64,000 bases of DNA from Chryseobacterium sp. Leaf404. GTDB taxonomy: Bacteria; Bacteroidota; Bacteroidia; Flavobacteriales; Weeksellaceae. The notes under the pieces are model-generated. The model was not told where the DNA came from. It did no database searches and saw nothing but the letters and a program-made list of their open reading frames with translations. The stretch is taken from contig NZ_LMQM01000011.1 in the NCBI RefSeq assembly GCF_001424145.1, positions 304,476 to 368,475 on the forward strand. Reading direction: 5' to 3'. The translations under genes were made by a program, and so were the position numbers. The stretch's first letter is position 1. The number at the start of each line of letters is the position of its first letter. This document shows positions 53,025-55,866 of this stretch, piece by piece.

Positions 53025-53828
53025 ATGAATTCAGAAAAGACAGGATTAGTGCTGTCCGGCGGCGGAACCAAAGGAATTGCTCATGCAGGAGTTATAAAAT
53101 TTTTGAATGAAAAGAATATTAAAGTTGACATTCTTTCATGCTGCAGTGCAGGCTCAATCGTAGGCTGTCTCTACGCAATAGGAAAATCTCCTGAAGAAAT
53201 TTTAGACTTTTTTAATTCTGTCTATTTTTTCAACTGGAAGCATTTTGCGTTTAATCAACCTGGGTTGGTATCTTCAGGAATCTTCAGAAACTATCTGAAA
53301 CCTATTTTTAGTGACCTAAAAATAGGAGATTTAGAGAAAAAAGTAAAAATTGTTGCCACAGAACTGGTTTCTGGAACACAAAAAATTTTTGATGATGATT
53401 TTGAAATCGTAGATGCCATCATCGCCTCCTGCTCTATTCCGGGAATTACCACGCCATATATTATTGGCGGTGAAATGTATTGTGACGGTGGGGTTTTAAA
53501 CAATTTTCCGGCAGATATCATCCGGAATGAATGTGAGCATCTGATTGGCGTTTTTGTCTCACCACCCCATAATATGGAAATTAATGATCTCAAAACTATA
53601 AAAGCAATTGTATCAAGATCTTACGACCTTTTGTCATATCGGGTTGAAAAAATTAAATTTGATTATTGTGATTGGCTGATTACGTCTCAGGATTTCTCCA
53701 GCTACGGTACTTTTGAAAGAAAAAAAAACCGTCTGGAAGAGCTTTTCAACATTGGATACAAGTCTGCGGAAAACAGCTATGATCAGGTTTCGGATATTAA
53801 ACAAAATCCAGCAGACAGCACATTTTAA
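53025..53828 (+). CDS. Patatin-like phospholipase
   Basis: A 267-residue patatin-fold protein. The oxyanion-hole loop SGGGTKGIAHAG is at residues 11-22, the nucleophile is Ser41 in CCSAG, and the catalytic Asp154 is in DGGVLNNFP. The usual GxSxG has Cys for the first Gly (Cys39-Cys40-Ser41-Ala42-Gly43), the only departure from the family pattern. No signal peptide is visible, so it should be cytoplasmic, acting on membrane lipids or acyl esters; substrate unknown. A hairpin with AAAAAACC/GGTTTTTT follows at 53864-53900. Confidence 0.87.
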   Translation: MNSEKTGLVLSGGGTKGIAHAGVIKFLNEKNIKVDILSCCSAGSIVGCLYAIGKSPEEILDFFNSVYFFNWKHFAFNQPGLVSSGIFRNYLKPIFSDLKIGDLEKKVKIVATELVSGTQKIFDDDFEIVDAIIASCSIPGITTPYIIGGEMYCDGGVLNNFPADIIRNECEHLIGVFVSPPHNMEINDLKTIKAIVSRSYDLLSYRVEKIKFDYCDWLITSQDFSSYGTFERKKNRLEELFNIGYKSAENSYDQVSDIKQNPADSTF

Positions 53829-53863: not shown

Positions 53864-53900
53864 AAAAAACCGGGTTATATTTTGTATGTTCAGGTTTTTT
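53864..53900 (+). terminator. Probable terminator of the patatin gene
   Basis: AAAAAACC and GGTTTTTT can pair across a 21-base loop, ending in a T run before the tssB leader. Confidence 0.5.
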
Positions 53901-53976
53901 CATAAATTTAAACTGTGGATTGGCAATTGATTTGCTGATTTCACCCAAAACCAAAAATCTCAAAATAAATAATAAT

Positions 53977-54423
53977 ATGGCAATGTTTAATTATGGCGTT
54001 GGCGGAAACGAAGTGAAAGTTGATGCCAATGAAGCAATCGCACAGATTCAGGAAAACAAATCTTTAATCGTGAGCCAGCTTACCACAGACGAATCTTACA
54101 CCCCGGAAATCGTAACCGGACTTAAAACGGTAGAAGATGTTTTCAGGCACTTCCAGCCTTCCGTTGAAGTGCAGCACGAAGATGCAGAAGGCAATTCTGT
54201 TGAAGAAGAATTCCGCTTTAAAAATCTCGCAGACTTTACCCCGAAAAATCTTGTTAACAACTCAGAATATCTTCAGAAACTGAGCATGGAGCAGGATCAG
54301 TACAACAAAATTGTACGTCAGCTGAAAACCAACAAAATCCTCAGAAATATGCTTGAAAACGAACAGTCAAGAGCAGCATTTTTAGAAGTTTTGAAAAATG
54401 TAGCTCAGGAACTTGAAAAATAA
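53977..54423 (+). CDS. tssB: Type VI secretion sheath small subunit TssB (subtype iii)
   Basis: From the ATG at 53977 (MAMFNYGVGGNEVKVDANEA) the protein is 148 residues; the 19 codons before it come from a non-coding leader. The sequence matches the small sheath subunit of Bacteroidota T6SS subtype iii, with EFRFKNLADFTPKNL (about 75-89) corresponding to the conserved VipA core and a helical end (LRNMLENEQSRAAFLEVL). TssB and TssC interlock to build the contractile tube around Hcp in the cytoplasm. The tssC gene begins 20 bases after the stop. Confidence 0.85.
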   Translation: MAMFNYGVGGNEVKVDANEAIAQIQENKSLIVSQLTTDESYTPEIVTGLKTVEDVFRHFQPSVEVQHEDAEGNSVEEEFRFKNLADFTPKNLVNNSEYLQKLSMEQDQYNKIVRQLKTNKILRNMLENEQSRAAFLEVLKNVAQELEK

Positions 54424-54442
54424 AAAAACACCGCAAAATATT

Positions 54443-55807
54443 ATGGAAAACAAACTTCAGACATCCGAAAATCCGCAAGAACAGAAGCAGTTTCAGGATA
54501 AAAGACCGTCGTCTGCCAATCCGTTGGAAGAGCTGAACAGAATTGGAGGCTTTGGCTTTATAGAATCTGTTGTGGATGGCATTGCCAATATGAATCCTAC
54601 GAGAAAAGCGAGAAAAGAAATATTCTTAAATGATTCTAATAAATCTGATGAAAGGAAAGAACTTCTTCAGAAAATAAATCTTTGGGTAGAGCTTCTGGAA
54701 GGAAGCGAAAACGCCGAAAAAATGGCCGAAACCTGTAAAAACAAAGCCCAAAGTGCTGAGAACAATTTAAAAATTAATCTTAAAAACGCCTTAGATTCTG
54801 TTCGTCAGTTGGAAACTTCATACCGCACAGTCGCTCAGTTTTATAAAAATACTGAGCTCGATAAAGTAGACAATGTAAGCATCGTCAACGCAAGTCTTGA
54901 TCAGGTTTCAGATCTTGATAATCCTGTATTTATTGATGCGATTGCAGATGAGTTTAAACAGTATTATGATCGTCTGGATCTTAGGGACAACTACTCTATT
55001 CTGGCCATTCCGGGATATTTGGGTTCAAATAAAGTTGTAGAAAAATGGGCTAAGATATGTAATGAAAATAAGGTAATGATGGTTACCGATTTTGCCAATC
55101 TTGACAAACCGGATGATGTGGTAGATCTTTTCCACTCTGCAAATCTTACAGGTGGTGAACTTCACAGAAGTAACGTCATTATGACCTGCAACTGGCTTGT
55201 AGGAAGAGGTAGAGCTGAAGAAGTGGGCGAAGAAGAAAATGTGGAACTGCCACCATCCACTTCACTGGCAGGAAAAATTCACAAAACTTTGATGTCTCAG
55301 GTGGCTGCCGGTAAAAAACACGGTAACATTAACGAAGTAGATGCTGTAAAATTTGATTTAAAGAAAAGTGAAATTTCTCAGCTTGAAAAGATGGGTCTTG
55401 TGCCAATGGTTAACGAGTATGGAAAAATCATGGCGTTCTCAGCAAAAACATTGTTTACAGGCGATAACATCGGTCTTCAGACCTATTCTGTAGTTCGTGT
55501 TTTTGATTATGTAACCAAAGTTTTACTCGATTTCTTAAACAGAAGAGCTTTCGAAAACTGGAATGCAAGAAACGAAGATGATCTGAGAAGACAAATCGTG
55601 AGCTTCCTTGACGGAATCAAAGGAGCAGATAAACTTATCGAAAAATTCAAAATCGTAAGATTTGAGCAGGATAAAGTGAATAAAGACAGAGTTTGGTTAG
55701 ACATCAGGCTTACTCCTTATTTTCCTACAAAAAGTTTTGTTATCAAACTTGACGGTCACAAAGGCGATGACGGAAACGAGTGGGATGCAGAATATATTCA
55801 GGATTAA
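54443..55807 (+). CDS. tssC: Type VI secretion sheath large subunit TssC (subtype iii, DUF5458)
   Basis: I use the ATG at 54443 (MENKLQTSENP); an earlier TTG would overlap tssB. The 454-residue protein fits the DUF5458 large sheath subunit of Bacteroidota T6SS, with the central domain GYLGSNKVVEKWAKICNENK (about 193-212) and the C-terminal handshake region RLTPYFPTKSFVIKLDGHKG. It assembles with TssB into the contractile sheath. No other tss gene (tssD/Hcp, tssE, F, G, H, K, N-R) lies within this window, so the rest of the machine would have to be encoded elsewhere. A terminator follows. Confidence 0.87.
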   Translation: MENKLQTSENPQEQKQFQDKRPSSANPLEELNRIGGFGFIESVVDGIANMNPTRKARKEIFLNDSNKSDERKELLQKINLWVELLEGSENAEKMAETCKNKAQSAENNLKINLKNALDSVRQLETSYRTVAQFYKNTELDKVDNVSIVNASLDQVSDLDNPVFIDAIADEFKQYYDRLDLRDNYSILAIPGYLGSNKVVEKWAKICNENKVMMVTDFANLDKPDDVVDLFHSANLTGGELHRSNVIMTCNWLVGRGRAEEVGEEENVELPPSTSLAGKIHKTLMSQVAAGKKHGNINEVDAVKFDLKKSEISQLEKMGLVPMVNEYGKIMAFSAKTLFTGDNIGLQTYSVVRVFDYVTKVLLDFLNRRAFENWNARNEDDLRRQIVSFLDGIKGADKLIEKFKIVRFEQDKVNKDRVWLDIRLTPYFPTKSFVIKLDGHKGDDGNEWDAEYIQD

Positions 55808-55826: not shown

Positions 55827-55866
55827 AAAAACAGACTGTCATTTTTGGCGGTCTGTTTTGTTTTGA
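55827..55866 (+). terminator. Terminator of tssBC
   Basis: AAAACAGAC and GTCTGTTTT form a stem around a 14-base loop, followed by GTTTTG. Confidence 0.8.

Follow-up and report, generated by a model that had tools for sequence, protein, structure and literature searches.

A lone tssBC pair in Chryseobacterium sp. Leaf404 as the probable sheath unit of a dispersed type VI secretion system

Genes for the two sheath subunits of a type VI secretion system of subtype iii (T6SS-iii), tssB and tssC, stand alone in a 64,000-nucleotide stretch of the Chryseobacterium sp. Leaf404 genome (hereafter the window), which raises the question of what such a sheath could serve. A sequence-only reading of the window had placed the pair by itself, flanked by a patatin gene and mutY and ending in a terminator, and this arrangement was confirmed by profile matches and by a terminator-like hairpin behind tssC (Table 1). 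The tssC product is a full-length match to PF17541 (Pfam TssC; 753 bits, E 1e-226), the Bacteroidota type of the family, and with TssB adjoining it the pair is of the T6SS-iii kind, the tssB product itself passing PF05591 (T6SS_VipA) narrowly in a Pfam profile search (26.7 bits, cut-off 24). A sequence search of solved structures returned no match for TssC and only weak matches for TssB. The window TssC shares 96% identity with its counterparts in Chryseobacterium sp. Leaf394 and C. caseinilyticum, in which the order of the flanking genes is identical as well.

The same reading had described the pair as being without any other T6SS gene. This holds for the neighbourhood, as the window's contig (C11) has no further match among the tss families searched, but not for the genome (3.94 Mb in 17 contigs, rated 100% complete), where protein-family searches and inspection of selected genomic stretches recovered the rest of one T6SS-iii at other loci (Table 1). 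There is exactly one TssC by family search, the window copy. Both outcomes named beforehand as refuting, a full second cluster carrying another tssBC and a genome devoid of tss genes, are excluded. The tube protein Hcp (TssD, PF17642) is encoded in four copies on C12 and C17 (110-112 bits each). Baseplate genes for TssE, TssF, TssG and TssK lie at two places on C10, a TssF match being adjoined by a TssE-like GPW_gp25 gene and TssN (294.6 bits) by TssK and TssG. Since TssK scores only 14.4 bits, below the Pfam cut-off, its assignment rests on synteny and on homology to the Elizabethkingia gene that is flanked by tssN and tssB. The membrane complex TssNQOPR is completed by a row on C12 consisting of TssR, a PKD-domain gene at the place of TssP, TssO, and, in the position of TssQ, another gene of the TssO family. 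VgrG spike genes and a ClpV ATPase gene are likewise present, the latter also being homologous to the gene 3' of tssC in Elizabethkingia. The vgrG-like genes on C17 (L009:6597-11575) are fragmented and contain ambiguous bases, which probably reflects assembly trouble in repeated vgrG copies. A split locus in this lineage, as had been suggested, is thus borne out, and a layout of this kind has been published for the genus (PMC10781749).

Table 1. Positions of the tssBC pair, its surroundings and related features. Bare numbers are positions in the window; C, contig of the same genome; L, examined locus.
Feature	Position	Strand	Remarks
Patatin-like phospholipase gene	53025-53828	same as tssB	PF01734
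Conserved nucleotide block	53879-53921		about 55-100 nt 5' of tssB
Promoter-like element TTG-N18-TAAATTTA	53882-53910	+	5' of tssB; predicted; one mismatch to TANNTTTG
tssB (VipA)	53977-54423	+	T6SS-iii sheath small subunit, 148 aa; ATG start at 53977
tssC (VipB)	54443-55807	+	T6SS-iii sheath large subunit, 454 aa; ATG start at 54443
Intrinsic-terminator-like hairpin	55828-55859	+	14-pair stem, 4-base loop, T-rich tail; closes tssBC
TATCTTTG element	56011		5' of mutY
mutY	downstream of tssC		TIGR01084, 284.6 bits, slightly below the 286.5 cut-off
eCIS	C10, about 49-70 kb (L089, L090)
tssG-tssN-tssK	C10, about 260.5-263.6 kb
Further VgrG-like gene	C10, about 427 kb
tssE-tssF	C10, about 787-788 kb
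hcp (two)-vgrG-tssQOPR	C12, about 404-420 kb
hcp (two)-vgrG-clpV	C17, about 8-18 kb		vgrG in pieces
TCGTAGNNNTACTACA copies	C12:408805, 409451, 409472; C17:13846, 13867, 14613; C10:427257		exact matches
LuxR-type response regulator gene	L007:7370-8041; L189:415-1068	+ (L007)	adjoins tssQ in two distantly related lineages of the genus

A sheath pair on its own might instead belong to some other contractile apparatus, for example an extracellular contractile injection system (eCIS) or a phage-tail particle, and an eCIS is indeed encoded on C10, with an eCIS core protein, baseplate J and spike proteins. That device, the only other one found, carries its own sheath (PF17482/PF04984) and its own tube (PF06841), and so has no need of TssBC. 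The window TssC matches PF17541 alone and neither of the eCIS sheath families PF04984 and PF17482, in other genera its nearest relatives are encoded within or beside sets of T6SS genes, and tssBC is absent jointly with tssN where it is absent (below). We therefore consider service in another device, which had been raised as the alternative to a split locus, extremely improbable.

The place of the pair is conserved among relatives. In each of the 80 named loci compared, tssC is accompanied by a tssB orthologue, and the pair precedes mutY in 75 of them; among the 19 examined genus loci with a complete neighbourhood of the window type, mutY is beside tssBC in 18 and about 5 kb away in the nineteenth. 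Queries with the T6SS proteins of the window's genome (TssE excluded) revealed no further T6SS gene in the examined flanks at 77 of the 80 named loci. The three exceptions are two Elizabethkingia loci and Chryseobacterium sp. FP211-J200, in which tssQOPR is followed by tssBC. A tree of TssC sequences groups the window protein with other lone Chryseobacterium copies, with moderate support for the lone group (69/82), and these copies share a clade with linked copies from Elizabethkingia and other genera, far from a second T6SS type. Dispersal of an ancestrally linked system within Chryseobacterium is the simplest explanation, the tree itself leaving the direction unfixed.

TssC is matched in 145 and TssN in 143 of 148 genomes of the genus, and TssN is likewise missing from the four genomes that have no intact TssC (G072, G079, G134 and G067, the last retaining a fragment, E 1.5e-7), a joint absence that reaches a Fisher p of 2.6e-7 when kinship among the genomes is ignored. 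One genome with a fragmented assembly (G021) has a TssC match without a detected TssN. In the close relative G067, a short broken piece of tssC remains at the equivalent place between patatin and mutY (L082:10478-10630), as would be expected if tssBC were a decaying remnant of a lost T6SS. In the window, however, both frames are intact, and every other core component sought was found in the genome. Relative to other Chryseobacterium, dN/dS is about 0.04-0.06 for tssB and about 0.02-0.05 for tssC (0.02-0.06 for the pair), with dS high in the more distant comparisons; both genes are under strong purifying selection, as is the case for working genes. A decaying remnant is accordingly very unlikely for the window's pair.

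The loss in G067 ties tssBC to the scattered T6SS and at the same time sets the patatin gene apart from it, as that genome keeps the patatin despite having lost both tssBC and tssN. This bears on the proposal that the upstream patatin is a T6SS effector forming a unit with tssBC. Patatin-type phospholipases do occur among T6SS effectors, and the gene is on the same strand as tssB and ends 148 nt 5' of it. Against this, the patatin is beside tssBC in the closest relatives only (1 of 19 and 2 of 80 loci), its place being taken in most other loci examined by two M13-peptidase-like genes, as judged by eye. An effector role in one unit with the sheath genes thus finds no support and has a very small probability in our estimation; given its restriction to the nearest relatives and its retention in the T6SS-less G067, the patatin is probably unrelated to the T6SS.

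A single TssC, the presence of the other parts elsewhere in the genome, the joint absence with tssN, the conserved order with mutY, the linkage in Elizabethkingia and the purifying selection all argue for tssBC being part of the scattered T6SS. We put at roughly 0.95 the probability that the lone tssBC is the sheath unit of a T6SS-iii that is complete and probably working, with its genes spread across at least five places on the chromosome. We count against it the TssB score near its cut-off, the TssK score below its cut-off, the one ambiguous vgrG region on C17, the genome with tssC and no detected tssN, and a genome carrying a second-type system alone (G053, below). Assembly, firing and function we infer from homology with the B. 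fragilis system. By this homology, TssB and TssC would polymerise around an Hcp tube supplied by the hcp loci. Sheath and tube would stand on a baseplate of TssEFGK, which the membrane complex TssNQOPR would hold in place. Contraction of the sheath would then fire the VgrG-tipped tube, after which ClpV may recycle the sheath. In Chryseobacterium, a lone tssBC is the usual form that the sheath genes of this conserved, dispersed T6SS take and not an orphan device, and genomes in which tss genes lie apart should not for that reason be scored as T6SS-negative in annotation.

Dispersal over several loci raises the matter of how such units might be expressed together. Upstream of tssB, a nucleotide block that overlaps the promoter-like element is strongly conserved across the genus. 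The promoter consensus at -7 in Flavobacteriia is TANNTTTG. The block is a short open frame in many species and could be read as coding for a short upstream peptide (MLQFFFKFKHWIG... in most species, often in the frame of tssB), but we do not regard this as the most likely interpretation, because the DNA is conserved despite a stop at codon 3 (L119-L121) or a later break, the window included. A promoter is more likely than a peptide on this pattern of conservation. No copy of the block precedes the other T6SS units in the examined stretches of the window's genome.

Tube and spike units appear to share a different element. The motif TCGTAGNNNTACTACA was first noticed on visual inspection of the sequences 5' of hcp in the window's genome and tested elsewhere afterwards. 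Its seven exact copies there all lie 5' of hcp or vgrG genes: six on C12 and C17, upstream of all four hcp genes and in tandem pairs at two of them, and one upstream of the C10 vgrG. As the motif was derived from these sites, the hcp count in this genome is circular, which does not apply to the vgrG copy or to the counts from other genomes. Summed over 40 genomes of the genus, there are 222 exact copies against 9 of the reversed pattern; one of the 40 (G008) has no exact copy despite having a T6SS. Among 65 examined site groups, a non-random choice, hcp is the next gene at 35 and vgrG at 16, the remainder including LysM-domain genes, a Tae4 amidase and Imm51 immunity genes. At hcp sites, the motif ends 48 nt 5' of the TANNTTTG element, with tandem copies 21 bp apart. 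In Elizabethkingia, it is found 5' of hcp within the T6SS cluster; it is absent from all four second-type T6SS loci examined and, even with one mismatch allowed, from the region before tssB across the relatives' loci. Among the papers searched, none described a regulator site at Bacteroidota hcp promoters, which is no proof of absence. We put forward TCGTAGNNNTACTACA as a new candidate regulatory site shared by tube and spike units in different loci. In the window's genome, a gene for a LuxR-type response regulator is oriented divergently from tssQ; such a gene lies beside tssQ in FP211-J200 as well. It is a candidate regulator of the scattered T6SS; that it binds TCGTAGNNNTACTACA is a guess. 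We hypothesize, at even odds, that a regulator, perhaps of this tssQ-side LuxR type, binds TCGTAGNNNTACTACA to turn on tube, spike and some effector genes across loci, the sheath genes, tssBC among them, being expressed from a different conserved promoter. The presence of TCGTAGNNNTACTACA at hcp and vgrG units offers a testable handle on the coordination of a scattered weapon.

Three known systems place the window's case in context. The T6SS-iii of Elizabethkingia has orthologous tssB and tssC, with a TssC 88-91% identical to the window's and in the same clade, but is encoded in one linked cluster (tssF-G-N-K-B-C-clpV) with hcp and vgrG near. About 23 Chryseobacterium genomes of the sample carry a second, linked T6SS-iii, the core genes of which are identical in kind. 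Its TssC, however, is only about 60% identical to that of the window and forms a separate clade, and its tssBC is linked to tssF and usually also to hcp or vgrG. With its single TssC, the window's genome is without this second type; in one genome (G053; L070, L071, L084), the second, linked T6SS-iii occurs alone and no tssBC precedes mutY. The third system is the Chryseobacterium T6SS-iii surveyed by Bongiovanni et al. 2024 (PMC10781749), which is divided into up to four or five loci, with tssBC as one pair, tssN between tssK and tssG, tssE with tssF, and tssQOPR together. The window's genome is alike in both the split and the groupings and differs in nothing substantial, having an extra vgrG locus on C10. 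As it agrees with that survey in every respect tested, the scattered T6SS-iii layout found here is one already known for the genus.
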